A program made the position numbers and the translations under genes. Positions 11,790 to 32,353 of a stretch of DNA of 34,281 nucleotides are shown piece after piece (position 1 is the stretch's first letter; each line of letters opens with the position of its first letter). Below the pieces are notes generated by a model, which saw only the letters and a list, made by a program, of their open reading frames with translations, was not told the DNA's origin and did no database searches. This DNA comes from Acidimicrobiia bacterium. GTDB lineage: Bacteria; Actinomycetota; Acidimicrobiia; Spongiisociales; UBA11373. Location: NCBI GenBank assembly GCA_016932695.1, contig JAFGCH010000112.1, positions 1-34,281 of the forward strand, in the 5' to 3' direction.

Positions 11790-12697
11790 CTTCGCTCTTC
11801 GAAAGGCCCCACGAACCGCACCTCCGGCTCCAGGTCGATTCCGGTGCGGTCCCGGACGCGGCGCCGCACCTCGGCCACCAGGTCGAAGAGGTCCTGGGCC
11901 GAGGCCCCCGCCTCGGCGACGAAGAAGTTAGCGTGCTTCTCGGAAACGGCCACTCCCCCCACCCTGAAGCCCTTGAGGCCTGCCTGGTCGATGATCCTTC
12001 CGGCGGCGTCGCCGGGCGGGTTCTTGAAGACGCTACCGGCGTTCAGGGTGCCCCCCGGTTGATTCTGCTTCCGCCACCGGACGATCTCGCGCATGATGGC
12101 CTCCCCCTCCCGGCGCGGCCGGGCCAGAGTGTGGAAGGTCGCCGCTACGACGAGGTCGGTGTCGGCCAGATCGCTGTGGCGATACGCCAGGCCCAGCGCG
12201 CCCACCGGACGCTCGGTCACCACCGCCCGCAGCAGATCGATGACCCGCGCCGAGACCAGCCAGGAGGCCGTGTCGCTGCCGTGGCCGCCGGCATTCATGC
12301 GCACCGCCCCGCCCACGGAGCCCGGGATCCCCACCATGAACTCCAGCCCGCCGCGGCCCGCGGCAGCACAGCGCCGGGCAACGGCCGGCTGGGAGGCGGC
12401 GGCACCGGCGGCCACCAGCCCGTCCCCGCGCACCGCCACTCCGGCCATGCCCTGAGCCGGCCGGATCACCAGCCCCGGGAAGCCCTGGGGAGATACCACC
12501 AAGTTGCTCCCTCGACCCAGCACCAGCACCGGCACCGGTTCCGCCGCCAGGGCCGCGGCCACTTCGAGGATCTCCTCCTCGTGATGGGCTTCCAGGTAGT
12601 ACCGCGCCGGGCCCCCAAAGCGGTAGGTGGTCAGCGGGGCGAGCATCACCTCCCCGGCGAGCACGCCGGCCCCCGCCAGGTCGGCCAGGGTGGTCAT
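11786..12697 (-). CDS. murB: UDP-N-acetylenolpyruvoylglucosamine reductase
   Basis: The 303-residue FAD enzyme reduces UDP-GlcNAc-enolpyruvate to UDP-MurNAc with NADPH. The FAD-binding motif GRGSNLVVS is at residues 61-69. PGSVGGAVRMNAG (125-137) and catalytic Ser222 in AGSVFKNP are present, as is SEKHANF near 260. AYRHSD at 171-176 resembles the Tyr-Arg segment of the family. Its place between murC and ftsQ is common in Gram-positive dcw clusters. Start and stop both overlap neighbours by four bases (ATGA with murC, GTGA with ftsQ). Confidence 0.96.
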   Translation of the reverse strand: MTTLADLAGAGVLAGEVMLAPLTTYRFGGPARYYLEAHHEEEILEVAAALAAEPVPVLVLGRGSNLVVSPQGFPGLVIRPAQGMAGVAVRGDGLVAAGAAASQPAVARRCAAAGRGGLEFMVGIPGSVGGAVRMNAGGHGSDTASWLVSARVIDLLRAVVTERPVGALGLAYRHSDLADTDLVVAATFHTLARPRREGEAIMREIVRWRKQNQPGGTLNAGSVFKNPPGDAAGRIIDQAGLKGFRVGGVAVSEKHANFFVAEAGASAQDLFDLVAEVRRRVRDRTGIDLEPEVRFVGPFEERR

Positions 12698-14061
12698 CGC
12701 GAGGACCCCAGCATCCCGGTGAGCTCCTCGGCGACCAGCGTGATGTCGCCGGCCCCCATCAGCAGCACCAGGTCTCCCGCCCGGGCCTCCCGGGCCACCA
12801 CCCCGGCCAGGTCGCTGCGCCGGGGCACGTAAGTGACCGCCGCCCCGGCCGCTCCGGCAGCGTCGGCCACCAATCGCCCGGTGACCCCGGGCACCGGTGC
12901 CTCACCCGCGGCGTAGACATCGGTCAGCACCACCCGGTCGGCTCCGGCCAGGGCTACCCCGAAACGTCCGGCGTGCTCGGCAGTACGGGTGAACCGGTGC
13001 GGCTGGAAGACCGCCACCAGGCGCCGGGGCGCTCCCATGCGGGCGGCGGCGATGGTGGCGGCCACCTCGGTGGGATGGTGGGCGTAGTCGTCGACCACGG
13101 TGATGTCCCGGATACGGGCCCGCACTTCGAAGCGCCGGCGCACCCCGCCGAAGGAGGCCAGGCCGGCGGCGGCGCCGGCCACGTCGAAGCCCAACTCTCC
13201 CAGCATGGCCAGCGCCCCGGCGGCATTGCGAGCCACATGGAGGCCGGGACGGGGAACGTTCACCGCCACCGCCGTGCGCCCGTGCTGCAGGGTGAAGGAG
13301 ACGGCGGCGGGGGCGGCGGCGACCTCGGTGATGCGCCATGAGGACTCCGGGTCGAAGCCGAATCCCACCACGCCCGGGACGCGCCCCGCCAGGCGCCGCG
13401 CCCCCGGATCGTCTAGGCAGGCGACCACCGGGCCGCGGCACCGGGCCGCTACCGCGACGAAAGCCTCCTCCACCGCCTCGGCGGTCCCGTAGTGGTCGAG
13501 GTGATCTGCTTCCACGTTGGTGACCGCCAGCGCCGCCAGGTGCACCTCCAGGAAGGTCCCGAAGGCCTCGTCGGCTTCGAGCACGAAGAGGCCGGGCTCT
13601 CCCCGGTGAGCGTTGGTGTTCAGGTCCACCAGTTCTCCGCCCACCATGAACGAGGGGTCGCGTCCCAGGGATCGCAAGGCCGCCACCACCAGCGCCGTGC
13701 CGGTGGTCTTGCCGTGGGTCCCCGCCACCCCGATGGCCGGGGTGCGCCGGGTCATGGCCTCCAGCAGTCGCGGCCGAAGCCACACCTCCACCCCGGCGGC
13801 CCGGGCGGCGGCCAGCTCCGGGTCGCGCGCGGGCACCGCCGAGGAGGCCACCACCAGATCCCAGCCGCCGGCGCGCGACGGACGGTGCCCAACCCAGGTC
13901 TCCACCCCGAGGCCCGCCAGGGTGGTGAGGGCGCGGCTCGGCTTCAGGTCGGACCCGCTGACCGCGTGGCCCGCCTGGGCCAGCAGCTTGGCCAGGCCCG
14001 ACATGCCGATGCCCCCGACGCCCACCAGATGTATGCGGTGAAAGCCGGCCAGCTCAGCCAC
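12694..14061 (-). CDS. murC: UDP-N-acetylmuramate-L-alanine ligase
   Basis: The 455-residue ATP-dependent ligase adds L-alanine to UDP-MurNAc. The N-terminal UDP-binding domain opens with IHLVGVGGIGMSGLAKLL (residues 10-27). The ATP loop is GTHGKTT (114-120). EADEAFGTF and NVEADHLDHYG lie in the central domain, and VVDDYAHHPTE and VFQPHRFTRT in the C-terminal domain. The start is GTG 14061, eight bases inside murG and preceded by GGAGGGGG. The longer frame to 14250 is the murG shadow. The stop overlaps murB (ATGA). Confidence 0.96.
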   Translation of the reverse strand: MAELAGFHRIHLVGVGGIGMSGLAKLLAQAGHAVSGSDLKPSRALTTLAGLGVETWVGHRPSRAGGWDLVVASSAVPARDPELAAARAAGVEVWLRPRLLEAMTRRTPAIGVAGTHGKTTGTALVVAALRSLGRDPSFMVGGELVDLNTNAHRGEPGLFVLEADEAFGTFLEVHLAALAVTNVEADHLDHYGTAEAVEEAFVAVAARCRGPVVACLDDPGARRLAGRVPGVVGFGFDPESSWRITEVAAAPAAVSFTLQHGRTAVAVNVPRPGLHVARNAAGALAMLGELGFDVAGAAAGLASFGGVRRRFEVRARIRDITVVDDYAHHPTEVAATIAAARMGAPRRLVAVFQPHRFTRTAEHAGRFGVALAGADRVVLTDVYAAGEAPVPGVTGRLVADAAGAAGAAVTYVPRRSDLAGVVAREARAGDLVLLMGAGDITLVAEELTGMLGSSR

Positions 14062-15130
14062 GAGCCCCCTCCAGCAACCGGTCGGCGATGTCGCCCGCGG
14101 CGTGCGGGCGTCCCAACTGCCCGGCGCGGCGGGCCATGTCCTCCCTGGCGGCGGGGTCGCCCAGCAGGCCGCCCACCACCTCGGGCAGTCGCGCCGCCTG
14201 GGACTGAGGAACGAGCCGCGCCCCGCCCGCCGCCACCAGGGCGGCAGCATTGTGCTGCTGGCCTACGCGGTCGAGGGGCACCAGCACCGCCGGGGTCCGG
14301 GTGGCCGCCAATTCGGCGATCGTCATGGCCCCGGCGCGGCACAGCACCAGGTCGGCGGCGGCGTAGAAGTACTCCATCTGCTCCTCGAAGGGCAGGCAGC
14401 GCCACGGTAGCGGGGCCGCCGCGGCCCGCGACGCGAACTCGCCCGCCTCCGCGCCGGCGAGGTGCACCACCGCCAGCGCGCCGGCCGGGCGACCGGCGAC
14501 CAGGGCCGCCACCGCCCGGTTGAGGACCCGCGCCCCCTGGCTCCCCCCGAGCACCCCGAGGACCGTGGTGCCGTCGGGGATCCCGTAGCGCCGCCGTGCT
14601 GCGGCGCCCAGAGCCGCCCGGTCGAATGCCGCCAGGCCGGGACGGAGCGGGTTGCCGGTCAGCACCGATCGAGGAAGCCGCTCCGCCGGGCCGGGCAGTC
14701 CCAGGAACACGGCGCAGGCCCGGCGGGCGGCCAGGCGCACCGCCAGGCCCGGTACCGCGTTCTGCTCTTGGAGGAACAGCGGGATCCCCAGGCGGCGGGC
14801 AGCTCGCGCCGCGGGGACGGTCACGTAGCCACCCATCGCCAGCACCACACCGGCCCCATGGCCGTCCAGAGCAGCCGCCATCGCCCGGCCGGTGCGCCGC
14901 AGGACGAACGGGATGCGCAGATTGCGCGGTGAGGCGCTGCGCTTGAGGGCTACCAACTCGAAACCGGCGAAGGGGAAACCGGCTGCGGGCACGACGCGAG
15001 CCTCCAACCGGTCTCCGCCCAGGAACACAACGTCGGCCGGGTCGAGGCCGCGGGCCACCAGAGCCTGGGCGACGGCCAGAGCCGGGAAGACGTGGCCGCC
15101 CGTGCCCGCGGCGGCGATGGCCACCCTCAT
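14054..15130 (-). CDS. murG: Lipid II synthase glycosyltransferase MurG
   Basis: The 358-residue GT28 enzyme transfers GlcNAc from UDP-GlcNAc to lipid I at the inner face of the membrane. AAAGTGGHVFPALAVA near the start is the glycine-rich lipid/membrane-side motif, followed by LQEQNAVPGLA, GGSQGARVLN and the sugar-nucleotide-binding stretch CRAGAMTIAELAATRTPAVL. ATG 15130 overlaps the ftsW stop by ATGA. The 3' end overlaps murC by eight bases. Length and motif order are normal for the family. Confidence 0.96.
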   Translation of the reverse strand: MRVAIAAAGTGGHVFPALAVAQALVARGLDPADVVFLGGDRLEARVVPAAGFPFAGFELVALKRSASPRNLRIPFVLRRTGRAMAAALDGHGAGVVLAMGGYVTVPAARAARRLGIPLFLQEQNAVPGLAVRLAARRACAVFLGLPGPAERLPRSVLTGNPLRPGLAAFDRAALGAAARRRYGIPDGTTVLGVLGGSQGARVLNRAVAALVAGRPAGALAVVHLAGAEAGEFASRAAAAPLPWRCLPFEEQMEYFYAAADLVLCRAGAMTIAELAATRTPAVLVPLDRVGQQHNAAALVAAGGARLVPQSQAARLPEVVGGLLGDPAAREDMARRAGQLGRPHAAGDIADRLLEGARG

Positions 15131-16293
15131 GCCGGCTCCGGCGGCGGGGCCTGCCGGGCGATGCCGACCAGGATGCCGACACCGATCAACTCGGTGAGCA
15201 GGGCACTGCCCCCATACGAGACGAAGGGCAGCGGCACCCCGGTGATCGGCAGGACCCCCACGACCCCCCCGATGTTGACCAGGGCCTGTGCCGCCAGCCA
15301 GGTGGTGATGCCTATGGCCACCAGCCTGCCGAAGCGATCACGACAGCGCAGCGCGACCAGGGTCCCCGCCGTCGTCAAGGCGATGAACAGCAGAACCACG
15401 GCGAGCGATCCGGCCAAGCCGGTCTCCTCGCCCACGATGGAGAAGATGAAGTCGGTATGGGCGTTGGGCAGGAAGGACCAGCGCGCCCGGCTGGCCCCGA
15501 GGCCCACCCCGAAGAGGCCCCCGGTGCCCAGCGCCACCAGCGATTGCATCGCCTGGTACCCGGTGTCCAACGGATCTGCCCCCAGATTGAGGAACGAGGT
15601 GACTCTCTCCCACCGGTAGGGAGAGATCATCGCCGCGGCTACCGCCGCCGCCGCGCCGATGGCCCCGCCCCCGAGTACGAAGGCCAGGGGCGCCGCCGAG
15701 GCGACCAGGACGGCGAAGCCGCCCGCGGCGATCAGGAGCGTCGTCCCCAGATCGGGCTGGGAGACCACCAACGCCCCCACCACTCCCACCGAAAGGGCCA
15801 CCGGCCACAGGAAGTCGCGGAAGCGGTGCATGGAGTCTTCTTTGCGGCTCACCAGGGTTGCCAGGAACAGCACCGTGGCCGGCTTGGCGAACTCCGACGG
15901 CTGCAGCAGCATCGGGCCGACAGAGAGCCAGCGCTCCGCGCCGCCGCGGCGTAGCCCGGCCACCTGCACCACCACCAGCAGCACCACCGTCCCCACGAAG
16001 AGGGGGAAGGCCAGCCGGCGCCACCAGCGCAGGGGGGTGAACGCCGCCGCCGCCAGGGCCGCCACCCCTCCCGCCAGCCATATCAACTGGCGGCGGAAGT
16101 AGTAGAGCGAATCCAGGTCGTTCTGCAGCGCCGGCACCGACGACGAAGAGAGGATCGCCCCCAGCCCCACCACCGCCAGCAGGCCCACGGGGATCAGCAG
16201 CGCCACGACGAGCCGCCAGGAGCGGCGGGCCGCTTCCTCGGCACGGCGCCAGGCCGCTCGGTCGGCTGCTCGCGGCAGTGTGCCCGCCGTCAT
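15127..16293 (-). CDS. ftsW: Septal peptidoglycan polymerase FtsW (SEDS family)
   Basis: The 388-residue polytopic membrane protein polymerises lipid II into glycan strands with its partner FtsI. About ten hydrophobic segments are visible. SEDS landmarks include RWLSVGPMLLQPSEFAKPA near residue 122, SQPDLGTTLL near 178, GLGASRARWSFLPNAHTDFIFS near 276 (with the conserved Asp) and GVPLPFVSYGGSALL near the C-terminus. It is labelled FtsW rather than RodA because it sits between murD and murG in the dcw operon. ATGA overlaps are present at both ends. Confidence 0.94.
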   Translation of the reverse strand: MTAGTLPRAADRAAWRRAEEAARRSWRLVVALLIPVGLLAVVGLGAILSSSSVPALQNDLDSLYYFRRQLIWLAGGVAALAAAAFTPLRWWRRLAFPLFVGTVVLLVVVQVAGLRRGGAERWLSVGPMLLQPSEFAKPATVLFLATLVSRKEDSMHRFRDFLWPVALSVGVVGALVVSQPDLGTTLLIAAGGFAVLVASAAPLAFVLGGGAIGAAAAVAAAMISPYRWERVTSFLNLGADPLDTGYQAMQSLVALGTGGLFGVGLGASRARWSFLPNAHTDFIFSIVGEETGLAGSLAVVLLFIALTTAGTLVALRCRDRFGRLVAIGITTWLAAQALVNIGGVVGVLPITGVPLPFVSYGGSALLTELIGVGILVGIARQAPPPEPA

Positions 16294-17570
16294 CGCCCCT
16301 CCTTCAGCCGGCGCACCGCGACGGCGAACACCTCACCGCGGTGGGCGTAGGAGTGGAACATGTCGAAGGAGGCACATCCCGGCGCGAGGAGCACGGTGTC
16401 GCCGGGCTCCGCCAGCCGGTCGGCCAGGGCCACCGCCTCGTCCATGCCCCCTACCAGCGTGCCCGCCCGCGCCGCCGCCACCATCTCGGGCCCTGCCTCG
16501 CCGATGCCGATCACATGCCGCAGGGAGGGCTCGGCGCTGATGGCCGCCACGTCGAGGCCCTTGTTCCGGCCTCCGGCGATCAACACCACGGGCCCGCAGG
16601 AGCGAATGGCGGCCACCGCGGCGTGCGGGTTGGTCGCTTTCGAATCGTCCACCCAGGTCACCCCGTCCCATACCCCTACTACCTCCCGGCGATGGTGCGG
16701 CGGCCGGAAGTCGGCCAGCGCCGCGGTGACCCCCGTGGGGGTGGCTCCCAGGAAGAGCGCCGCCCCGGCGGCGGCGGCGGCGTCGACCAGGAAGATGGGA
16801 TCCGCGGCCGCAGCCACCTCCACGAGGCCATCACCCACCAAGAGCCCCCCTCCCTCCGGGCCCGCCCCGCCCTCCGGGCAGCGGTGGCCGCTGACGGGCA
16901 AGAGGCGGGAGCGGGCCCCGGAGACCGCCCGCCGGGCACCGGCATCGTCGGCGTCGTACACCAGGACATCTTCCGGGCCCTGGTTGCGGTGGATACGGGC
17001 CTTGGCCGCCAGGTAGGAATCGAAGTCACCGTGCCAGTCGAGGTGGTCGGGAGCCACATTGAGCAGCACGGCGGCCTGCGGGTGGAAGCTGCTGGTGAAG
17101 CGCAGTTGGAAACTCGAGGCCTCCACCACCAACACCTCCCAGTCGGCCCCCACCGCGTCGGCCAGCGGGACCCCGATGTTCCCCACCGCCGCGGCACGCC
17201 GGCCCGAGGCGTGGAGCATCGCCACCGCCATCTGGGTCACGGTCGTCTTGCCGTTGGTGCCGGTCACCGCGAGCAGCGGCACGGTGAGGTGCCGGGAGGC
17301 GAGTTCCAACTCCCCCCACACCGTCAGGCCGGCTTCGAGCGCCGCCCGCAGCGGGGGGGCGTGCTCGGGCACCCCGGGGCTCGTCACCACCAGGTCGACG
17401 CCTTGGAGCCAGGCGGGGTCGAAGGAGCCGCTGTGGACCCGGCGCCCCTCTTCCAGTCCTTCCAGCGCGCCGGGATCGGCGTCGTAGACCGCCACCTGCT
17501 CCCCTTGCTCTTCCAGGAGGCGCACCGCCGCCCGGCCGCTGACCGCCGCCCCGACGACCAGGACCTTCAT
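16290..17570 (-). CDS. murD: UDP-N-acetylmuramoyl-L-alanine:D-glutamate ligase
   Basis: The 426-residue ligase adds D-glutamate to UDP-MurNAc-L-Ala. The N-terminal Rossmann-like domain starts MKVLVVGAAVSGRAAVRLL. The ATP loop GTNGKTT is at 104-110. EASSFQL and NVAPDHLDWHG mark the central domain, and DDSKATNPHA, LIAGGRNKG and LLAPGCASFDMF the C-terminal domain. The start is ATG 17570, overlapping the mraY stop (ATGA). A much longer frame upstream is only the shadow of mraY. The stop overlaps ftsW (ATGA). Confidence 0.96.
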   Translation of the reverse strand: MKVLVVGAAVSGRAAVRLLEEQGEQVAVYDADPGALEGLEEGRRVHSGSFDPAWLQGVDLVVTSPGVPEHAPPLRAALEAGLTVWGELELASRHLTVPLLAVTGTNGKTTVTQMAVAMLHASGRRAAAVGNIGVPLADAVGADWEVLVVEASSFQLRFTSSFHPQAAVLLNVAPDHLDWHGDFDSYLAAKARIHRNQGPEDVLVYDADDAGARRAVSGARSRLLPVSGHRCPEGGAGPEGGGLLVGDGLVEVAAAADPIFLVDAAAAAGAALFLGATPTGVTAALADFRPPHHRREVVGVWDGVTWVDDSKATNPHAAVAAIRSCGPVVLIAGGRNKGLDVAAISAEPSLRHVIGIGEAGPEMVAAARAGTLVGGMDEAVALADRLAEPGDTVLLAPGCASFDMFHSYAHRGEVFAVAVRRLKEGR

Positions 17571-18616
17571 CCCACCCCTCCCGAAGTGATGAAGTCCCCG
17601 TAGAAGATGCCCAGGGCCAGGGCCACGCCCAGCCCGGCGAGGATCCAGAAACGCACGATGACCGTGGGCTCGGGCCATCCCATGAGCTCGAAGTGATGGT
17701 GGAGGGGAGCCATCTTGAAAACCCGGCGCCCGAAGGCGTGGAAGGTGATGATCTGGATGACCACCGAGGCCGCCTCGATGACGAACAGCCCGCCCAGGAT
17801 GATGAACAGCAGGTCGGTGTTGGTGAGGAGGGCCAGAGCCGCCATGGCTCCGCCCAGCGCCTGCGACCCGGTGTCCCCCATGAAGATGCGCGCCGGCGCG
17901 GTGTTCCACCACAGGAAGCCCAGCGTCGCTGCGGTGAGAGCGGCGGCGAGCATCGCCAGATCCAGCGCCCCGCCCACGCCGTAGAAGCCGGGGTGGCGGA
18001 ACTGCCAGAAGCAGATGATGGTGAAGGCCCCAAATACCAGGGCCGACGAGCCCGACACCAGGCCGTCGAGCCCGTCGGTGAAGTTCACCGCGTTGGAGAC
18101 GGCGGTGATCATCAGCAGCACCCAGAGGACGTAGAACCAGCCCAGGTCGGCCCCGAACGGCCGGGTGAAACCGACCCGGGTCGTCAGTTCCCAGCTGAGA
18201 GCGCCCCAGGCGAAGACCCCGGCGATCAGCCCTTGGCCCAGGAACTTCCAGGTCTTGCGCAGGCCCAGGTTTCGGGCCCGCCGCACCTTGGAGTAGTCGT
18301 CCAGGAAACCGATGACCCCCATGCCGACGAAGGCCAGCACCACCAGCAGCCCCCGACGATCGAAAGGCTTGAAGCTCAGCTGCCAGGCCCCGGATGCGTC
18401 CCGCACGTCGAGGTGCCCGGCGAACCAACCTGCCACTACCGCCAGCAGGATGACCAGGCCGCCCATCGTGGGCGTCCCCTTCTTGTGCGAATGGCCCTCC
18501 ACTTCCTCCCGGATGTGCTGCCCGATGCTCCGGGCGTGGAAGAAGCGCACCGCCACCGGGGTCACCAGCACGGTGATGCCGAAGGCGATGACGGCCGCGG
18601 CGAGCATGGCGATCAC
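17567..18616 (-). CDS. mraY: Phospho-MurNAc-pentapeptide translocase MraY
   Basis: The 349-residue integral membrane enzyme transfers phospho-MurNAc-pentapeptide to undecaprenyl phosphate, making lipid I. About ten membrane segments are visible. Signature sequences are EGHSHKKGTPTMGGLVIL near residue 40, FLDDYSKVRRARNLGL with the conserved Asp pair near 102, NAVNFTDGLDGL, FMGDTGSQALGG and PLHHHFEL near 295. The GTG start at 18616 overlaps the murE stop (GTGA) and follows AGGAGG by eight bases. In most dcw clusters murF would precede it; here murE is directly upstream. Confidence 0.96.
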   Translation of the reverse strand: MIAMLAAAVIAFGITVLVTPVAVRFFHARSIGQHIREEVEGHSHKKGTPTMGGLVILLAVVAGWFAGHLDVRDASGAWQLSFKPFDRRGLLVVLAFVGMGVIGFLDDYSKVRRARNLGLRKTWKFLGQGLIAGVFAWGALSWELTTRVGFTRPFGADLGWFYVLWVLLMITAVSNAVNFTDGLDGLVSGSSALVFGAFTIICFWQFRHPGFYGVGGALDLAMLAAALTAATLGFLWWNTAPARIFMGDTGSQALGGAMAALALLTNTDLLFIILGGLFVIEAASVVIQIITFHAFGRRVFKMAPLHHHFELMGWPEPTVIVRFWILAGLGVALALGIFYGDFITSGGVG

Positions 18617-20067
18617 GGCCGGGCCTCCTGGCGCGCTACCTCGCGGTCGTCGAAGGGCACGACACGGTCGGCGAACTCCTGGCCGGTCTCGTGGCCCTTG
18701 CCCAGGACGAGGACCACATCGCCCCGTCCGGCGGACTGCAGCGCCCGGCGGATGGCGCAACGCCGGTCCACTTCCACCCGCACCTCCGCGGGCCCGGCGG
18801 CCGCCCCGGCCAGCACCTCACTGATGATGGCTTCGGGGTCTTCGGAGCGCGGGTTGTCCGAGGTGATGACCGCCAAGTCCGCAGCCGCTGCCGCCCTTCC
18901 CATGAGGGGTCGCTTCGCCCGATCACGATCGCCCCCGGCCCCGACGACGGCGATGACCCGGCCCTCCCCCACCAGGCCTCGCGCCGTGGCGATCACGGCC
19001 GCTACCCCATCGGGAGTGTGGGCGTAGTCCACCACCACGGTGCAATCCCTCTCGGTAGCTACGACCTCGAAGCGGCCCGGGACTCTGGCCACCGCCCCGA
19101 TGCCGGCCGAGATGCTATCGGCACCGATTCCGAGGTCGGCGGCAATCCCCGCCGCCACCAAGGCGTTGGCCACGTTGAACGACCCGGGCAGATGCAGACG
19201 CACCATCACCGCGGGCCCCGCCCCCAGCAAACGGAAAGAAGACCCGTCGAGGCGCAACGCCACGTCGGTCGCGGTGATGTCGGCCGGAGCCCCGAGAGCC
19301 ACCCGCGTTACGGGAAGCGGTGTCGTCGCCGCCAGGCGCTCCCCGTACGGGTCGTCGACCCAGATCACCGCCCGCCGGGCGAGGCCGGGCCCAAACAGCG
19401 ATGCCTTGGCCTGGAAGTAGGCCTCCATGTCCGGATGGAAGTCGAGGTGGTCCTGGCTCAGGTTGGTGAAGGCGGCCACGGCGAAGCGGGACCCGGCCAC
19501 CCGGCCCAGAGTCAGAGCATGCGAGGAGACCTCTACCGCCGCCACCTCCACTCCCGCTGCCACCATGCGGGCCAGGAGCCGCTGGAAGTCGGCCGCCTCC
19601 GGAGTGGTGCGGCTCACCGGCACCTCCTCGCCGGCCACGCGGGCCCCCACCGTCCCCACCACCGCCGACATCAGGCCGGCAGCGGAAGCGATGGACTCCA
19701 CCAGATGGCAGGTGGTCGTCTTCCCGTTCGTCCCGGTGACCCCGACCAGGTCCAGATGATGTGACGGGTCCCCGTGCACCCGGGCGGCCAGGGGCCCCAT
19801 GGCGGCTCGGGTGTCGGCGACCACCAGGGTCGGCCCCCCGTCGGCGGGGTCCGTCTCCACGCACACCGCGGCGGCCCCCGCAGCCCGCGCCGGGCCCACG
19901 AAGCGATGCCCGTCCACGTTGAATCCCTTGACGGCCACGAACAGCACCCCGGGCCCGGCGACCCGGGAATCGTGGGTCACTTCCTCCACTACCACGGCCG
20001 GGTCGCCCACCAGCCGCGCCCCGACCTGCGCCGCCAGCTCACCCAGGGTCACCGGCTCAGGGGGCAT
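18613..20067 (-). CDS. murE: UDP-MurNAc-tripeptide synthetase MurE (likely meso-DAP type)
   Basis: The 484-residue ligase adds the third amino acid to UDP-MurNAc-L-Ala-D-Glu. VTHDSRVAGPGVLFVAVKG near residue 30 marks the UDP-binding domain. GTNGKTTT (112-119) is the ATP loop, followed by EVSSHAL, NLSQDHLDFH and VVDYAHTPDG. TSDNPRSEDP near residue 400 carries the DNPR motif that in characterised enzymes selects meso-diaminopimelate, and GKGHET follows. ATG 20067 lies 11 bases inside ftsI; the longer open frame is ftsI antiframe. Length is normal, so it is not a MurE-MurF fusion. The stop overlaps mraY. Confidence 0.95.
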   Translation of the reverse strand: MPPEPVTLGELAAQVGARLVGDPAVVVEEVTHDSRVAGPGVLFVAVKGFNVDGHRFVGPARAAGAAAVCVETDPADGGPTLVVADTRAAMGPLAARVHGDPSHHLDLVGVTGTNGKTTTCHLVESIASAAGLMSAVVGTVGARVAGEEVPVSRTTPEAADFQRLLARMVAAGVEVAAVEVSSHALTLGRVAGSRFAVAAFTNLSQDHLDFHPDMEAYFQAKASLFGPGLARRAVIWVDDPYGERLAATTPLPVTRVALGAPADITATDVALRLDGSSFRLLGAGPAVMVRLHLPGSFNVANALVAAGIAADLGIGADSISAGIGAVARVPGRFEVVATERDCTVVVDYAHTPDGVAAVIATARGLVGEGRVIAVVGAGGDRDRAKRPLMGRAAAAADLAVITSDNPRSEDPEAIISEVLAGAAAGPAEVRVEVDRRCAIRRALQSAGRGDVVLVLGKGHETGQEFADRVVPFDDREVARQEARP

Positions 20068-21772
20068 CGGGGGGCACTCCCAGCTGGTGCAGGGCCGCCA
20101 GGGCCACGGCGGAGAACACTGGGGCCGCCCCCTTTCCCCCGCTCGCATCTTCCCGCGGCCCGTCGAGCACCACCGCCACCACCACGCGGGGATGGTCGAT
20201 GGGGGCCATGCCGATGAACGAAGCCACTACATCCTCGTCGCTGTACTCGCCCGACTCGCTCAGGTACTTCTTCGTGGTGCCGGTCTTGCCCCCCACTCGA
20301 TATCCGGGGATCGCCGCCAGAGACCCGGTGCCGCGCTCCACTACAGCGGCCAGCATCTCCCGCACTCGGCGAGCCGTCTCCGCCGACACCACTTGCTGCT
20401 CCGGCGGTTCCACCGGCATCCGGCTCCCTCGTCCGTCGACGATCTCGGCGACCAGGTGGGGCCGCACCCGCACCCCGTCGTTGGCGATGGTGGCATAGGC
20501 CGACGCCATCTGCAGCGCCGTCACCGACACGTGGTAGCCGATCGAGGTGCCGGCAACGCAGGTGGTAGGACACCACTCCTCGGGAGGGTGTAACACCCCG
20601 GCGGCCTCGCCGGGGAAGTCGATCCCCGTCTCCCTGCCCTGCCCGAAGGCCACCATGAACTCGTGCAGGCGGCGCGCCCCCAGCATCTCCCCCAACAGGA
20701 TCGTGCCCAGGTTGGAGGATTGAGCCACGATCTCGGTCACGGTGAGCCGGTCGGGATGCTGGGTGAAGTCCTGGAACACGGTGTCGAGGATCTCGATGCG
20801 CTCGGGGATCTCCAAAGTGGTGCCCGGCGTCACCAGGCCGGTCTCCAAGGCCGCCGACACCGTCACCAGCTTCTGGGTGGATCCCGGCTCGAAGAGGTCG
20901 GTCACGGCCCGATTGCGCACCTGCTCGGGCAGCAGGCCGACGCGATCCTCGGGATCGAACCCGGGGAGGTTCACCATCGCCAGGACCCCGCCCGTCGCCG
21001 GGTCGAGGACCACCACCGAGCCGGCCCGGGCCCCGGTGCGCTCGAGGGCATCCCGCAAGGCTTGAGTGGCGGCGTACTGGATGGGAGTGAGCAGGGTGAG
21101 GACGAGGTCGCTGCCCGGCTCGGCAGGCACCACCGAGTACTCCCCCTGCGGGATGGTGCGGCCCGCCGGGTCCCGTTCGACGCGCAGCTGCCCCGGAGTG
21201 CCCGCCAGCTCCTCGTCGTACTCGTACTCGAGTCCTTCGAGGCCCACGTTGCTGTCGGGCTGGACGAAGCCCACGACCTGAGCGGTGAGCGACCCTGCGG
21301 GATAGACCCGCTTGGGCTCGTGGAGGAAGTAGATGCCGGGAAGCTCGGCGGCGCGCACCCGATCGGCGTCGGCGGGATCGAGCTGCCGGGCCACGTACAC
21401 AAAGGTGCCGTCGCCGGCGAGCAGCCCCTCCACTTGCCGGGAGTCCTGGCCGGTGAGCGACGCCAGATAGCGGGCCTCCACCGCGGGGTCGGTCACTTCT
21501 CGCGGGTTGGCGTACACCGTCACCGAGTCCACCGTGAGCGCCAGCTCCCGACCCTCGGCGTCGAAGATGGTGCCCCGGTCGGCGGCCAGGGTCTCGGTGT
21601 GGAGGCGCTGGCCCAGCCCGCGAGCAGCGTATTCCTCGGCCCGGGTGCCCTGCACCACCACGAGGCGATAGCCCACCCCGAGCCAGGCCAGGGTCAGGGC
21701 CACCCCGACCATCAACAGCCGGGCGTTCAGGCCGCGCGACCGGCGGGGAGGAACGGCAGGAGGCAGGGACAC
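20057..21772 (-). CDS. ftsI: Septal transpeptidase FtsI (class B penicillin-binding protein)
   Basis: The 571-residue protein crosslinks septal peptidoglycan. A short cytoplasmic tail and one membrane segment (about 18-38) are followed by the dimerisation domain with ADRGTIFDAEGRELA (64-78). The transpeptidase domain has Ser298-x-x-Lys301 (PGSTQK), the SxN motif S352-S353-N354 and KTG at 496-498. No PASTA domains are present. The phenylalanine usual in PGSTFK is Gln here. The GTG start at 21772 has GGAGGG nine bases upstream and is 27 bases from the ftsL stop. murE starts inside its last codons. Confidence 0.94.
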   Translation of the reverse strand: MSLPPAVPPRRSRGLNARLLMVGVALTLAWLGVGYRLVVVQGTRAEEYAARGLGQRLHTETLAADRGTIFDAEGRELALTVDSVTVYANPREVTDPAVEARYLASLTGQDSRQVEGLLAGDGTFVYVARQLDPADADRVRAAELPGIYFLHEPKRVYPAGSLTAQVVGFVQPDSNVGLEGLEYEYDEELAGTPGQLRVERDPAGRTIPQGEYSVVPAEPGSDLVLTLLTPIQYAATQALRDALERTGARAGSVVVLDPATGGVLAMVNLPGFDPEDRVGLLPEQVRNRAVTDLFEPGSTQKLVTVSAALETGLVTPGTTLEIPERIEILDTVFQDFTQHPDRLTVTEIVAQSSNLGTILLGEMLGARRLHEFMVAFGQGRETGIDFPGEAAGVLHPPEEWCPTTCVAGTSIGYHVSVTALQMASAYATIANDGVRVRPHLVAEIVDGRGSRMPVEPPEQQVVSAETARRVREMLAAVVERGTGSLAAIPGYRVGGKTGTTKKYLSESGEYSDEDVVASFIGMAPIDHPRVVVAVVLDGPREDASGGKGAAPVFSAVALAALHQLGVPPDAP

Positions 21773-26221: not shown

Positions 26222-26839
26222 GAGCGCCGCCCAGGCGGCACGGGCGATGGCGTAGGGGCGCGAGGCCCGGACCAGGCCGGCGCCGGCACCCCGGGCCCCT
26301 CCGGGCGCCTCGAGCACCACAGTGACCACCCGCGAGCCGTTGGCGGTGGCCCAGTCGACGGCAATCACCCGCGGCGGCCCGCCCACCAGCAACTCCCCGA
26401 CGGCCTCGATCACCGCCGCGGCCAACTCGTCTTCACCGACCGCGCTGCTCCGGGTCGCCTGCCTGCCGTCGGCAGCAGTCACCGTGACCTCGAGCGTGCT
26501 CGCCGTTTCCTCCAGGCGCACCGCAGCCAAGCCGGGCGCCGGACGGGCCTCCACCGGCGCCGGAGGCGGAGCCTCCTCCTCGCGAGGAGCCAACGGCGGG
26601 AGCGGCGGCAGCGGCGGGGGTGCCACTGCGGTGCCGTCCACCCGAGATCGCATGCCGTACGCCGCCAGCACGCGCTGGACTTCCAGGCCCACCCGGTCGG
26701 GATCGGCGTCGGGCGCCAGCCGGATCCGCACCCCGGAAGGCGCGCTGCCCTCCCCATCGAGCTCCACCTCGGCCACCCCGGGGAGGCCCAACAGCTCGTC
26801 TCGCAGGCTCGGTGCGGCCACAGCACCCACTCCCTTCAT
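26213..26839 (-). CDS. Unrecognised two-domain protein
   Basis: I do not recognise this 208-residue protein. Residues about 8-65 look like a small alpha/beta domain (LPGVAEVELD...VRIRLAP...VQRVLAAYGM), loosely like ACT or HMA folds. A proline-rich linker (about 70-100, PPPLPPLPPLAP) follows. The C-terminal domain (about 104-208) alternates strands and helices and ends GLVRASRPYAIARAAWAALTD. No signal peptide, membrane segment or catalytic motif is evident. ATG 26839 overlaps the stop of the upstream 77-residue gene as ATGA, so they are translationally coupled. An ATG eight codons earlier would overlap more. Confidence 0.65.
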   Translation of the reverse strand: MKGVGAVAAPSLRDELLGLPGVAEVELDGEGSAPSGVRIRLAPDADPDRVGLEVQRVLAAYGMRSRVDGTAVAPPPLPPLPPLAPREEEAPPPAPVEARPAPGLAAVRLEETASTLEVTVTAADGRQATRSSAVGEDELAAAVIEAVGELLVGGPPRVIAVDWATANGSRVVTVVLEAPGGARGAGAGLVRASRPYAIARAAWAALTD

Positions 26840-27069
26840 CCCGCTCGCTGCCTCTTCCGCCACCGCAGGTAGCGCACCAGGTCCTCCGCCGTGATGCCGG
26901 CCTCCGGGTCCCCGTAGGCGGTGAGCTTCCGCCAGCGCAGGTATTCAGACTCCGGCACCCATAGTAGCCGCTTTGGCCACTCCTTGCATCGGAAATCGCG
27001 CGCGGTGCGCAGGGCTTCCGGCCACAGCCCCGGCCGGGCGAGCACCGCCAGGAAGGCGTCGAAGCGCAC
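26836..27069 (-). CDS. Unrecognised 77-aa protein
   Basis: The protein starts VRFDAFLAVLARPGLWPEALRTA and has LLWVPESEYLRWRKLTAYGD, then ends AEDLVRYLRWRKRQRAG. It is basic, tryptophan-rich and carries two YLRWRK motifs (near residues 44 and 68), an internal echo worth noting. No family is recognised and no membrane segment is seen. GTG 27069 is preceded by TATGAT at 27081-27076, six bases away, fitting a leaderless transcript. A long frame extending upstream on this strand is antisense to moxR and is not used. The next gene overlaps by ATGA. Confidence 0.7.
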   Translation of the reverse strand: MRFDAFLAVLARPGLWPEALRTARDFRCKEWPKRLLWVPESEYLRWRKLTAYGDPEAGITAEDLVRYLRWRKRQRAG

Positions 27070-27075
27070 CCGGCC

Positions 27076-27081
27076 ATCATA
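27076..27081 (-). promoter_or_regulatory. -10 box for the 77-aa gene (leaderless)
   Basis: Minus-strand TATGAT is a strong -10 match and ends six bases before GTG 27069, with no Shine-Dalgarno sequence between. Confidence 0.5.
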
Positions 27082-27136
27082 AGGGCCAAGTCCCAGAACC
27101 CTTGAAGCCCCCGCGCCGGCGCGCAAGTGGCCGCGC

Positions 27137-27166
27137 TTAACACCCGCAAAACACCCCCGCTGATAA
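27137..27166 (+). promoter_or_regulatory. Candidate promoter for the moxR operon
   Basis: TTAACA (27137-27142) and TGATAA (27161-27166) are 18 bases apart. The region divides the moxR operon from the divergent 77-residue gene. Confidence 0.35.
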
Positions 27167-27207
27167 CCTCCGCTCGACCAGACCGCCCTTCTCCGGAGGC
27201 CCGCACC

Positions 27208-28188
27208 GTGACCGAGGCACCCGTCGGCCAGCAGGAACTTTCCTGGTTCTCCGATCGCTTCGAGGCGATCGCCGCCAACATCGAGCGGGTCATCCAGGGC
27301 AAAAGGCCCGTGGTGGACCTGGTGGTCCTGGGCCTCCTCGCGGAAGGGCACCTCCTCATCGAGGACGTCCCCGGCGTGGGCAAGACCCTCCTGGCCAAGT
27401 CGCTGGCCCGCAGCATCCATTGCGGCTTCCAGCGGGTGCAGTTCACCCCCGACCTGCTCCCCTCCGACGTCACCGGGGTCTCGGTCTGGGACCGGGAGCG
27501 CAGCGCTTTCGTCTTCCGCTCCGGGCCGGTCTTCTCCAACATCGTGCTCGGCGATGAGATCAACCGGGCCAGCCCCAAGACCCAGGCGGCCTTGCTCGAG
27601 GCCATGGAGGAGCGCCAGGTCACCGTGGACGGGGTGACGCGCCGCCTGCCCCCGCCCTTCATGGTCATCGCCACCCAAAACCCCATAGAGCACGAGGGCA
27701 CCTATCCCCTGCCCGAGGCCCAGCTGGACCGCTTCATGATGCGGCTGGTGATGGGCTATCCCTCGCGAGAGAAAGAGCTCGAGATCCTCGAGACCCACGG
27801 GGTGCGCTCCACCTACGACGACCTCGAACCGGTGATCACCGCCGAGGACGTCACCCGCATGATCGACATCGCCCGGCGCGTCTACGTCTCCGAGCCGGTC
27901 AAGGCCTACTTGGTGGACACGGTGGAGGCCACCCGCCGAGACCCCGATCTCCTGCTGGGAGCCTCGCCGCGAGCCACCCTTTTCCTGCAGCGCAGCGCCC
28001 GCACCCGGGCGGCCATGGCCGGGCGCCACTACGCCACCCCCGACGACGTCAAGGCCATGCTCCGCCCGGTGCTGACCCACCGCATGATCCTGCGGCCCGA
28101 AGCCCAGATGCGGGGGGCTTCCGTCGAGGAGATCGTCGAAGGTATCGCTCACGGAGTACCGGTCCCCGGCACACGGTCGAGGGCCTGA
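27208..28188 (+). CDS. MoxR-family AAA+ ATPase
   Basis: The 326-residue ATPase has Walker A EDVPGVGKT (52-60), Walker B NIVLGDE (111-117) and the sensor 1 segment FMVIATQNPIEHEGTYPLPEAQLDRF. These are characteristic of MoxR proteins, which act as chaperones for assembling or activating partner proteins, often those with von Willebrand A or DUF58 domains. The GTG at 27208 follows GGAGG by eight bases. The next gene, DUF58, starts on the last base of its stop (TGATG), and a transglutaminase follows. This triad is widespread, and the ATPase probably acts on one of these partners. Confidence 0.94.
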   Translation: MTEAPVGQQELSWFSDRFEAIAANIERVIQGKRPVVDLVVLGLLAEGHLLIEDVPGVGKTLLAKSLARSIHCGFQRVQFTPDLLPSDVTGVSVWDRERSAFVFRSGPVFSNIVLGDEINRASPKTQAALLEAMEERQVTVDGVTRRLPPPFMVIATQNPIEHEGTYPLPEAQLDRFMMRLVMGYPSREKELEILETHGVRSTYDDLEPVITAEDVTRMIDIARRVYVSEPVKAYLVDTVEATRRDPDLLLGASPRATLFLQRSARTRAAMAGRHYATPDDVKAMLRPVLTHRMILRPEAQMRGASVEEIVEGIAHGVPVPGTRSRA

Positions 28189-29369
28189 TGCCCACCAACC
28201 GAGGGTGGGCGGCGGCCGGCGTAGCCGGGGCGCTCCTGCTGCTGTGGGCCGGCTTCGGGGAGATCGAACTGCTGGCCACGGCCGTCTTCCTCCTGCTGGC
28301 GGTGGGCGGCGGAGTGGCCTTCGTACGCCTCGGGGCGCCGCGGCTCGAGGCCACCCGGCACATCTACCCGGCCCAGGCCCACGAGGGCGACACGGTGACC
28401 GTGGAGATGGACCTCGCCGCCGCCGCCGCCTCTCGCCATCTCTCGGTCGAGGACACGGTGCACGGCCTGGGAGTGGCCCGCTTCGCCGCCGCCGCCGCCG
28501 GCGAAGGCCAGCGGCTGGTGGCCCGCTACGAGGTCTACTGCCGGGCCCGGGGCATCTACCCCGTGGGGCCGGCCGAAGTCGCGGTGACCGATCCCTTCGC
28601 CCTCAGCGAACGCCGCGCCGTCCTCGGCAGTGTGGATCGGCTCACCGTCTACCCCGCCGTCGAGCCGCTCTCCGGGTTCCCGGCGGTGCGCGGCCTGGAC
28701 CCGGCGGTGCAATCCACCCATCCCACCTTTGCCCCCCAGGGCGGCGAGGACTTCTTCACCCTGCGCGAGTACCAGATCGGCGACGACCTGCGCCGAGTGC
28801 ACTGGCCTTCCTCGGCTAAGCGCGACGAGTTGATGATCAAGCAGCTCGAGGTGCCCTGGCAGGCCCGGGCCCTGGTGCTGCTCGACCAACGCGCCGAGCG
28901 CTACCCCTCTGCCGAGGCCTTCGAGCACGCCGTGCGGGGCGCGGCCTCGGTGGTCACTCACCTCTACCAGGGGGGCTTCAGCCCGGAGCTGTGGACCGGG
29001 GAGAGAGCCCCCGGCCTGCGCTCCGATTCCCGCTTCACCCAGGCGATGGAGGTGCTGGCGTCGGTGCAGCCGCTCCCTCATCTGGATCTTCGCCAAACCG
29101 TGACCCGCCTGCGCCGCCAGGGAGTCGGCGGCGGGGCCCTGGTGCTGGTCACCGGCCTGCCCGATGAGGGCGCCCTGGCCGCCTACCGGGTCCTCGCCCA
29201 GGACTTCGCCCGCACCGTGGTGCTCGCCGCCGCCGAGCGCCCGGGCGAGGCCCTCCTCTCCTTCCAGCGGGCCGGGGCGGTCACCGTCTCCGCCGCACCC
29301 GGGAGCCTATGGGCCCCGGCGTGGCGCACTGCTATGGAGCTGTCGTGGTCTACCGCTTCACTTGGCTAG
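28188..29369 (+). CDS. DUF58-domain membrane protein
   Basis: The 393-residue protein has two N-terminal hydrophobic segments (about 8-22 and 27-45), then a beta-rich region. The DUF58 core motif GGEDFFTLREYQIGDD-RRVHW follows near residue 185, and then a VWA-like region (KQLEVPWQARALVLLDQRAERYP) with a degenerate metal site. DUF58 proteins accompany MoxR ATPases and are likely MoxR clients in the envelope. The function is not established. The ATG shares one base with the moxR stop, and the 3' end overlaps the next gene by 25 bases. Confidence 0.92.
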   Translation: MPTNRGWAAAGVAGALLLLWAGFGEIELLATAVFLLLAVGGGVAFVRLGAPRLEATRHIYPAQAHEGDTVTVEMDLAAAAASRHLSVEDTVHGLGVARFAAAAAGEGQRLVARYEVYCRARGIYPVGPAEVAVTDPFALSERRAVLGSVDRLTVYPAVEPLSGFPAVRGLDPAVQSTHPTFAPQGGEDFFTLREYQIGDDLRRVHWPSSAKRDELMIKQLEVPWQARALVLLDQRAERYPSAEAFEHAVRGAASVVTHLYQGGFSPELWTGERAPGLRSDSRFTQAMEVLASVQPLPHLDLRQTVTRLRRQGVGGGALVLVTGLPDEGALAAYRVLAQDFARTVVLAAAERPGEALLSFQRAGAVTVSAAPGSLWAPAWRTAMELSWSTASLG

Positions 29370-31717
29370 CGGGGATCGCCGGGATCCTCTTCGCCCTGGT
29401 GCGCCTCGAGCGCTTGCTCCGCTCGTCGGTGGAGGGCCTCCCCTGGGAGCTCGTCCTGGCGGCCGCCGCGCTCCTGGGCGGGGCGCTCACCTGGGCCGGG
29501 CTCGCCTACCGGCTGCCGGCGCCGGCGCTCGCCGGGGTGAACCTGGCCGCCATGTTGCTCACCGTGGTGCGCATCGCCGTGCCCGGCACGACCTGGTTCA
29601 TCTTCCCCACCCCCTCCTCCTTCTCCGCCCTGGGTACCGAGCTCTCCTACGCCCTCGACGTGGCGCGCACCGGGGTCGCCCCGGTCCTCCCCCTTGCCGG
29701 GATCATCGCCATGCTGGCGGTCCTCTTCTGGGTCCTGGGAGCGTTTCTCGCCTGGGGGCTGCGCCGCGACCACCCCTACGTCGCCGTCCTCGCCCCGCTG
29801 GTGGCCTACCTCCAGTTCGCCACCATGGACCGGCAGCGCAGCGGCGCCTGGGCGGTGGGCTTCGTGCTGCTCCTGGGCCTGGCCCTGCTCGCCGTGGCCG
29901 CCGATCGGCGACGGCGGGGCACCGGCCTGCTCACCACCGGCCCCGGCCGCGCCGCCGTCGCCCGTACCCGCCCCGCCCTGGCGGGCAGCGGCCTGGCGTT
30001 GCTGGTGGCCCTCACCCTGGGGGCGACCACCGCCCTGGCGGAGACGCTGCCCCGCAGCGGCCTGCTCGAGTGGCGGGTGCCCTCGGCACTCACCGGGGGG
30101 TTCTACGGCAGCGTCTCCTTCAACCCCTTCGTAGGCATCCGCCAGCAACTGGTCAGCCCCACCGACACCCCTCTCCTCATTGCCGAGGTTTCCGGCGAGG
30201 TCGTCTGGCACCAGTTGTACTTCCGCCTGCTCACCCTGGAGTCCTTCAACGGGGAGCAGTGGTACTCGGACCGGCCCCGCGTTCCCCGGCCGGAGGAGAT
30301 CGACGGCTTCGAAGACGGCGACGCCGTCTTCCGCGGCCCCACCGCCCGTGCCACCCAAGTGGTCACCATCCTCGCCCTGCAGCAGGCCTGGCTCCCCGCC
30401 GCCTACTCCCCCATTCGATTCTCCGCCGACAACCGGGCGGTGGCGGCCGGGTACCGCATCAAGGTGGACGACGGTGCGCTCTACTTCGATGCCCTCACCT
30501 ACCGCGGCATGACCTACACCGTCGAATCGGCAGTGCCCCTTCCCGACCTCAGCGTCCTCGCCCTCGACGAGACCGGCAGCATCTCCCCCGTCTTCGCCGA
30601 AGCCTCCGCAGCCGAAGCCGGTTTCGAGGTCGTCCCTCCGTTGTCGGCGCCTCCGGTGTATCGCCTGCCCGACCGGGATCGCTACTTGGATCTGCCGTCG
30701 GGGATCAGCCCGGCGATCACCCGCCTCGCCGAGAACCGAGTGCGCGGGCTGGCCACCGACTTCGAGAAGGCCCTGGCCCTCGAGGCTTACTTCCGCGACT
30801 CGGGCGAGTTTCGCTACTCCATCCAGGTCGATCCCGGCCACGCCGCCACCGATCTGGCCGAGTGGCTCCTCGACCCCCTGAGCCCCAACTACCACACCGG
30901 CTACTGCGAGCAGTTCGCCACCGCCATGGCCGTCCTGGCCCGTCTCGTCGATCTGCCCAGCCGGGTGGTGCTGGGTTTCACCCCGGGCTGGCTCTACGAG
31001 GACGGCCGGGTGGTGATCAGCGACCGCAACGCCCATGCCTGGGTGGAGCTCTGGATGCCCACCCAAGGCTGGGTGCGCTTCGACCCCACTCCTCGCGGCG
31101 ACGGGGTCAATCCCGCCACCTCGGACGGTTTCCCCTTCGACCTGGCCGGTTACCTCGACATCGAAGTCACGACCTCCACCTTCGCGGAGGGCAGCAATCC
31201 TTCGATCACCCGCCCCATCGACGACGACGAGATCACGATCCCCACCGGCGCTACCCCCTCCACCGGCGGCTGGAAGATGCCCGATCTGCCGGCTTGGCTG
31301 ATCCCCGCCGCCGCCGCCCTGGCCGTGGCCTTCGGGCTGCTACCCGCCATCAAGTGGGCCCGGCGCCGCCGCCGGCTGCGCGCCCTGTCCGTCGGCGACG
31401 TGTCCGGCGCCTGGCGGGAGATCGTCGATCGGCTCTCCGACCTGGGCGACGAGCCCTCGCCCGCGGCCACCCCCGCCGAGGTAGCGGCGGGAACGGATCC
31501 CGCCATGCTGCCCCTGGCCCGGGTGTACGGCGAGAGCATCTACGGCCGGCCACCGGGCCGGGCCTTCGACCTGGGCCACGTGGTGACCGCCACCCGATCG
31601 TTCGAAGACACCGAAGGCCGCCTCACCGGCCGCTACTCCCGAGCCCGCCGCCTGGCGGCCTGGTACCGGCTGCGTTCACTCCGCCCCCGCCGCTGGCGGC
31701 GCTACCGGCACGGCTGA
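29345..31717 (+). CDS. Transmembrane transglutaminase-like protein (TgpA type)
   Basis: The 790-residue protein has about six N-terminal membrane segments (to about residue 225, DUF3488-like), a large outer region, then a transglutaminase core. Cys521 (GYCEQF), His564 (NAHAWVE) and Asp580 (FDPTP) form the catalytic triad. One further membrane segment (about 650-670) precedes a basic cytoplasmic tail with a DUF4129-like region. Related proteins are thought to act on wall or surface proteins, but the substrate is unknown. GTG 29345 follows GGAG by five bases; an ATG at 29309 is possible but overlaps DUF58 more. It is the last gene of the MoxR-DUF58 operon. Confidence 0.92.
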   Translation: MVYRFTWLAGIAGILFALVRLERLLRSSVEGLPWELVLAAAALLGGALTWAGLAYRLPAPALAGVNLAAMLLTVVRIAVPGTTWFIFPTPSSFSALGTELSYALDVARTGVAPVLPLAGIIAMLAVLFWVLGAFLAWGLRRDHPYVAVLAPLVAYLQFATMDRQRSGAWAVGFVLLLGLALLAVAADRRRRGTGLLTTGPGRAAVARTRPALAGSGLALLVALTLGATTALAETLPRSGLLEWRVPSALTGGFYGSVSFNPFVGIRQQLVSPTDTPLLIAEVSGEVVWHQLYFRLLTLESFNGEQWYSDRPRVPRPEEIDGFEDGDAVFRGPTARATQVVTILALQQAWLPAAYSPIRFSADNRAVAAGYRIKVDDGALYFDALTYRGMTYTVESAVPLPDLSVLALDETGSISPVFAEASAAEAGFEVVPPLSAPPVYRLPDRDRYLDLPSGISPAITRLAENRVRGLATDFEKALALEAYFRDSGEFRYSIQVDPGHAATDLAEWLLDPLSPNYHTGYCEQFATAMAVLARLVDLPSRVVLGFTPGWLYEDGRVVISDRNAHAWVELWMPTQGWVRFDPTPRGDGVNPATSDGFPFDLAGYLDIEVTTSTFAEGSNPSITRPIDDDEITIPTGATPSTGGWKMPDLPAWLIPAAAALAVAFGLLPAIKWARRRRRLRALSVGDVSGAWREIVDRLSDLGDEPSPAATPAEVAAGTDPAMLPLARVYGESIYGRPPGRAFDLGHVVTATRSFEDTEGRLTGRYSRARRLAAWYRLRSLRPRRWRRYRHG

Positions 31718-31788
31718 AGGGCGTCCCGGCCCGGAGAGGGCCCTCGGGTCGCTGGCGCCACCGGCCCGCGGCGCGGCGCGGCCCGGGC

Positions 31789-32280
31789 TCAGCTCCCCGA
31801 AGCCTCGATGGAAACGTCGTCTTCGACGCGTCGCAGCATCTCGAGGAACTGCTCCCGGTCGAGCTCGAAGCGGGTCACGTCCTCGGCCACCTCGCGGGTG
31901 ATCTCGCCGATAGCCACGAAGAACGCCAGCTGCCCCTCGCGCAGGGCGTCGACGACCTCTTCGTCGTTGGAGGCGACCCGAAAGATGCTGTGACCGTCGG
32001 TGATGAGGCGTACTTCGGCCAGGTGACGGTCCATGTCGGCGGTGCGCCGCAGGTAGTCCCAGGCACGGCGGACCCGCTGCAGCGACATGCCGTTGTCGAG
32101 CAGGCTCTTCACCACGCGAAGAGCAACGAGATCACGGAACGCGTAGAGGCGCCGCCGTCCCGGCCGGCCCCCGGTACGTTGCAGCGTGGGGCGTACCAGG
32201 TTGACGCGGTCCCAGTAGCGCAACTGGTGCGCGGTGCAGCCGGTGAGCCGACACGCCTGCTGTGCCGAGAAACCGTCCAA
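31789..32280 (-). CDS. MerR-family transcriptional regulator
   Basis: The 163-residue protein has an N-terminal MerR winged helix: FSAQQACRLTGCTAHQLRYWD (4-24), then RRRLYAFRDLVALRVVKSLLDNGMSLQRVRRA. A C-terminal domain of about 90 residues follows, with alternating strands and helices and no cysteine or metal-binding motif, so a metal sensor is unlikely. The target and ligand are unknown. The frame starts with TTG at 32280, preceded by GGGGAGGG seven bases away; no ATG or GTG start covers the helix-turn-helix. It is transcribed in the same direction as the DUF3040 gene 73 bases upstream and is convergent with the transglutaminase gene. Confidence 0.88.
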   Translation of the reverse strand: MDGFSAQQACRLTGCTAHQLRYWDRVNLVRPTLQRTGGRPGRRRLYAFRDLVALRVVKSLLDNGMSLQRVRRAWDYLRRTADMDRHLAEVRLITDGHSIFRVASNDEEVVDALREGQLAFFVAIGEITREVAEDVTRFELDREQFLEMLRRVEDDVSIEASGS

Positions 32281-32353
32281 AACCGTCCCTCCCCAAGGTC
32301 CCCGCCGGAGCCCCGCGGGCGGGGCCCTAGCTCCTACTCCCCCGAACCAACCG

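Follow-up and report, generated by a model that had tools for sequence, protein, structure and literature searches.

MurF is regarded as a universal, soluble enzyme that carries out the last cytoplasmic step before MraY. Its canonical form, captured by the family model TIGR01143, shares with the ligase described here the domains PF08245 and PF02875, the P-loop GSxGKTxTK, the motif DDTxNxNP and a link to Ddl, and is both its best family match and its closest structure. MurE-MurF fusions (PRK11929) are known that likewise remove a separate murF from the dcw cluster. MurT of the MurT/GatD pair is a Mur ligase without a UDP-binding domain whose closest fold is MurF, according to an excerpt of PMC6113224, which also has the UDP part bound by the N-terminal domain in MurC-F; in an excerpt of PMC6085368, MurT, whose substrate is lipid-linked, acts on lipid I/II rather than on UDP precursors. 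The ligase reported here, tmMurF, differs from canonical MurF in that a helical membrane domain of about 150 residues takes the place of the UDP-binding domain PF01225, in its score below the family cut-off and in its fixed α/β-hydrolase neighbour. Unlike MurT, it contains PF02875 and not MurT_C (PF08353), appears to be built into the membrane, and is adjoined by a hydrolase and Ddl rather than by GatD. We set it apart from the canonical family because two defining features, a score over the cut-off and PF01225, are missing. A search of the open-licence PMC literature, with preprints and subscription journals outside its scope, revealed no account of a membrane-embedded MurF.

The window, that is, the whole stretch of 34,281 nucleotides that was analysed, corresponds to contig C112 of a draft genome with 161 contigs, a size of 2.44 Mb and 95.5% completeness; it carries a dcw cluster in the order rsmH, ftsI, murE, mraY, murD, ftsW, murG, murC, murB, ftsQ, ftsZ (Table 1). 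The first-pass annotation had described this cluster as complete apart from murF, a loose wording, since mraZ, ftsL and ftsA were outside the search. It had further stated that murE and mraY overlap by GTGA with nothing between them, that mraY has a good Shine-Dalgarno sequence and that MurE is of normal length and unfused. All of this was borne out: the overlap lies at the murE-mraY junction, AGGAGG precedes the GTG start on the minus strand by 7 nt, and MurE reaches curated MurE scores. MurE and MraY are above their cut-offs in profile searches and MurG is slightly under its own. The longest murE ORF encodes 511 aa, of which residues 49-508 match MurE (NCBIfam), and its first 92 nt (window 20057-20148) run into the end of ftsI, so that translation of murE may actually begin further downstream. 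A MurE-MurF fusion was rejected, since the bifunctional model PRK11929 is covered by window MurE at 27-497 of 965 positions, the MurE half only, and by tmMurF at 588-936 of 965, in separate genes. Elsewhere in the window, two long ORFs at 29164-32442 (1092 aa) and 26836-28152 (438 aa) have no Pfam match at E ≤ 1e-5 and may or may not be genes, given the GC-rich sequence.

Table 1. Positions of the Mur genes and of the murE/mraY junction, with the profile scores on which the assignments are based.
Feature	Location	Coordinates	Strand	Remarks
murE	window	18613..20148	-	NF001124 503.7 bits and TIGR01085 471.1 bits, both above cut-off
murE/mraY overlap GTGA	window	18613..18616	-	murE stop TGA and mraY start GTG; murF site in sister genera
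mraY	window	17567..18616	-	TIGR00445 283.7 bits, cut-off 192.05
murD, next in cluster	window	16290..17567	-	TIGR01087 361.7 bits, above cut-off
murC	window	12694..14250	-	TIGR01082 420.6 bits, above cut-off
tmMurF	G000, contig C121	10614-12119	-	502 residues, assuming the GTG start after the hydrolase gene

A genome-wide search with the Mur ligase middle domain (Mur_ligase_M) returned six genes, of which only MurC, MurD and MurE lie in the window; the others are MurT (C154), FolC (C66) and one MurF-like gene (C121). TIGR01143 singles out the last with 189.1 bits, against at most 74.4 bits elsewhere (MurE, MurD, MurC, MurT and FolC), although no gene in the genome exceeds the cut-off for canonical MurF of 288.6 bits and the C121 gene itself stands at 187.9-189.1 bits. 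This gene, tmMurF, contains PF08245 (94.7 bits) and PF02875 (41 bits), and TIGR01143 is its best NCBIfam match. Ahead of residue 286 of the 615-aa ORF, no Pfam domain, PF01225 included, is recognised at E ≤ 0.01, and MurT_C is not matched. MurT and FolC were considered as stand-ins for MurF and rejected on their family matches; MurT on C154 has a GatD-like ORF beside it. The first-pass annotation had reasoned that MurF must have either a gene elsewhere or a substitute, and had pointed to the neighbourhood of ddl as the place to look. Both halves of its statement apply: the single MurF-like ligase is on another contig, where the order is α/β-hydrolase, tmMurF, ddl, and it counts as a replacement because its UDP-binding domain has been exchanged for a membrane domain. 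The Ddl homologue directly downstream is divergent (179.9 bits, cut-off 245.65). murF is thus displaced, not lost, in this genome.

Eighteen full-length tmMurF sequences of the order, including that of the window's genome, were aligned (48-77% identity to the first). Their N-terminal 150 residues consist mainly of hydrophobic helices with RxxQREHY and WTxRLRR motifs, and the P-loop, DDTxNxNP and a C-terminal YENDLPDH are common to the set. The P-loop is invariant in 18/18 sequences, and Glu217, His247, Lys261 and DDT-N-NP (L085 numbering) are invariant as well; we take these to be the catalytic residues of Mur ligases. An AlphaFold2 model of the named homologue L085, built from an alignment of 30 sequences (A2), has a pLDDT of 92.7 and a pTM of 0.89 and places seven helices up to residue 156 ahead of the ligase fold. 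The ten best Foldseek matches of this model in the PDB are MurF entries (4qf5, E 3e-23, over the ligase part), counting 2am1 at rank 8, which is titled 'sp protein ligand 1' and given as MurF in another listing. VIA-align likewise ranks a MurF first, that of Thermotoga maritima (3zl8; Z 37.6, rmsd 4.2, 358 residues). For the membrane domain alone (pLDDT 95.1), the PDB search gave 11 matches, none below E 5, which does not make the fold new. A Gln-Tyr motif in this domain (QREHY, QLEEY, QQEEY and similar) and the C-terminal ENDLPD are kept in most sequences across phyla. Two versions from candidate phyla (L122:4085-4507 and L130:3995-4318) reach the P-loop after only about 110 residues and have seemingly lost most membrane helices, with the motif kept as QLEEY/QIEEY.

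The murF-less junction was described in the first-pass annotation as long settled, in agreement with gene order in relatives. In 18/18 loci of the order with both genes, window included, murE and mraY range from a 16-base overlap to 37 bases apart, with mraY starts taken from the alignment and two of the loci coming from genomes in which neither MurF was found (G030 and G037); canonical murF is also absent from between the two genes in 28/28 further tmMurF genomes. In G003, a member of the window's family, 1,327 nt containing a canonical MurF separate murE and mraY, which indicates that murF was lost from its dcw place in the window's genus. In the proposed comparison of dcw order, then, members of the window's family do carry murF at the site. 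An assembly error was rejected, as the congeneric G001, which also encodes tmMurF, has the identical -4 overlap. Adjacency of murE and mraY is by itself no marker of replacement: where it could be placed, canonical MurF lies away from mraY in 19/22 genomes of the class, paired with another Ddl in all loci opened, and murE and mraY adjoin in 14/14 examined genomes of this kind. The class thus shows three states, with murF in the dcw cluster, murF beside ddl elsewhere, or a tmMurF cassette. Canonical MurF and ddl pairs outside the dcw cluster were seen in many Acidimicrobiia (L206, L207, L210, L215-L222), and in G614 and G659 a single ddl is flanked by two canonical MurF genes.

The class is taken to be Acidimicrobiia, to which many of the named tmMurF records belong. 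Of its 296 genomes with a completeness of 90% or more, 165 have canonical MurF (over the cut-off) and 127 have tmMurF (E ≤ 1e-70), with both in none and neither in four (G030, G472, G499 and G582). The per-genome tables were compared by eye; about 71 genomes with both would be expected if the two were independent, a figure that carries no formal test because the genomes are related. The 40 nearest genomes, including the window's own, divide into 19 with MurF over the cut-off, 19 with the N-truncated form only and two with neither (G030 and G037). The switch between the two enzymes falls inside eight families (f1, f3, f13, f14, f16, f99, f101 and f115) and even within two genera (g321 and g35), and therefore happened more than once. 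In a wider sample of the phylum, 30/396 genomes reached E ≤ 1e-70, including 14 of family f20 from another class, with matches starting at profile positions 80-84. Deep splits are weak in trees of tmMurF, MurE and MraY; those of MurE and MraY place the window genus beside G003, which has murF in its dcw cluster (support 0.98), so gain by transfer and parallel loss are both possible.

An α/β-hydrolase gene is directly upstream of tmMurF in 19/19 loci of the order and 44/47 testable named loci, and Ddl lies within the locus in 13/16 and 29/38 loci with enough flanking sequence. The hydrolase (L007:12116-12964; L085-L140) has a nucleophile elbow of the GHSFGG type in 18/18 aligned sequences, three of them with one substitution (GHSLGG, GHSHGG and GHSFGA), and its Asp and His are kept in at least 85%. 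As these three elements are conserved across phyla, the hydrolase probably has enzymatic activity. In the window's genome the cassette is flanked (L007:12987-16712) by subtilase-like and CapA-like ORFs, both of which end, as judged by eye, in Gly/Asp-rich nonapeptide-like repeats. Ddl is displaced along with MurF in tmMurF-only genomes: G000, G001, G016, G018, G019 and Actibacterium have, apart from weak ATP-grasp matches, only the cassette-type Ddl (about 177-194 bits), whereas that of G003 scores 329 bits, over the cut-off of 245.65. The tmMurF-only Yonghaparkia isolate G435 has a second Ddl (214 bits); in Nocardioides, which encodes both kinds of MurF, there are several.

The trio of hydrolase, tmMurF and ddl is also found in Bacillota (L118 and L119), in candidate phyla (L122 and L130) and in Pseudomonadota (L123-L126, L131 and L139). 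Of 120 genomes from the family of Actibacterium atlanticum, which belongs to another phylum than the window, 116 encode a full-length canonical MurF and one a fragment; the remaining three encode tmMurF only, with the cassette confirmed in 3/3; an extra Mur-like match in G768 was rejected as tmMurF, having neither membrane domain nor cassette. Outside the class, the two enzymes do not always exclude each other. Of 26 named tmMurF genomes, at least three contain both kinds (Nocardioides sp. YR527, Sporosalibacterium faouarense and Pseudooceanicola nanhaiensis), which implies that the cassette can coexist with canonical MurF or serve another use there. Amesbacteria G447 encodes a second N-truncated MurF, which is over the cut-off.

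The best explanation of these data is that tmMurF is the D-Ala-D-Ala-adding enzyme, whichever substrate it uses, and we put the probability of this at about 0.9. The assignment is inferred from the mutual exclusion with canonical MurF, alongside the MurF-type domains, the operon-like linkage to Ddl and the structural match to MurF. Weighing against it are a score under the MurF cut-off, the draft state of the genome and the coexistence with canonical MurF in some named genomes. A canonical murF could be hidden in an assembly gap, with tmMurF doing something else, as 161 contigs at 95.5% completeness and the relatives with neither enzyme, evidently a consequence of gaps (G030 and G037; 4/296), might suggest; but G001 and 125 other tmMurF genomes of the class also lack canonical MurF, so that an assembly gap would need to fall on this one gene in every case, and we regard this as very improbable. 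Another account is that the wall is made from tripeptide-only precursors, or that MurE or MurT covers the step, so that tmMurF does not add D-Ala-D-Ala. Its sole support is that the canonical enzyme is absent, and it sits poorly with the Ddl-family gene adjoining tmMurF, the presence of the transpeptidase FtsI, an ordinary MurE, and a MurT with its own MurT_C and GatD-like neighbour ORF; we consider it, too, very improbable.

If tmMurF does add D-Ala-D-Ala, Ddl would make the dipeptide and tmMurF would join it to a muramyl tripeptide at the membrane surface. The enzyme is predicted to be membrane-anchored, with the ligase domain and the basic motifs on the cytoplasmic side, and RxxQREHY and WTxRLRR probably bind the substrate at its pyrophosphate end. 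The analogy with MurT, which has no UDP-binding domain and a lipid-linked substrate, raises the possibility that the tripeptide form of lipid I or lipid II is the substrate of tmMurF. MraY, and perhaps MurG, would then act on the tripeptide precursor, and the membrane MurF would add D-Ala-D-Ala to the lipid-linked intermediate, its membrane domain replacing the uridine-binding domain as substrate anchor, a swap made repeatedly within Actinomycetota and also in Pseudomonadota. We advance this scheme tentatively, and its central element, addition of D-Ala-D-Ala after MraY, by analogy and at somewhat under even odds. The loss from tmMurF of the uridine-binding domain of MurC-F speaks against a competing scheme in which the enzyme works on UDP-MurNAc-tripeptide and hands UDP-MurNAc-pentapeptide on to MraY, the membrane domain only placing it beside MraY and the order of the pathway being unchanged. 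That scheme rivals the lipid-linked substrate and not the MurF role, and it is favoured by the ordinary look of the rest of the pathway, with MurE and MraY over their cut-offs and MurG just below, by the retention of both enzymes in some genomes, and by the finding that no MraY signature is tied to the MurF type. Co-variation with MurF type in 41 tmMurF and 16 canonical genomes gave no signal for MraY, with 1/334 columns at a balanced accuracy of at least 0.85, compared with 0/439 for MurE, 2/351 for FtsW and 4/416 for MurD; MurG, with only four canonical rows, was unusable. Rows shorter than 80% of the query, three loci outside the class (L236, L242 and L248) and L069, L082 and L083 were left out. 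The odds between lipid I/II-tripeptide and UDP-MurNAc-tripeptide as the substrate are about equal, and the UDP-linked scheme, too, is a serious possibility that we hold only provisionally.

Since the tmMurF family excludes MurF across a class and replaces it in another phylum, genomes recorded as missing murF may not be missing it. Bacteria with tmMurF form a natural group of possible escapees from MurF inhibitors, and they make a textbook point testable, namely whether transfer of the precursor to the lipid carrier requires that D-Ala-D-Ala has been attached beforehand. The swap in several bacterial groups is a hint that one of the textbook steps in wall synthesis may be located at the membrane.

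The dcw cluster of Actibacterium atlanticum differs in a further respect: mraY and murF are both missing from it, and a gene for a 240-aa TPR protein lies between murE and murD (L199:5822-9757). The sole MraY-family match in this genome is on another contig (L256:2809-3867) and is divergent, with 120.6 bits against a cut-off of 192; it adjoins a polysaccharide-export-like ORF.
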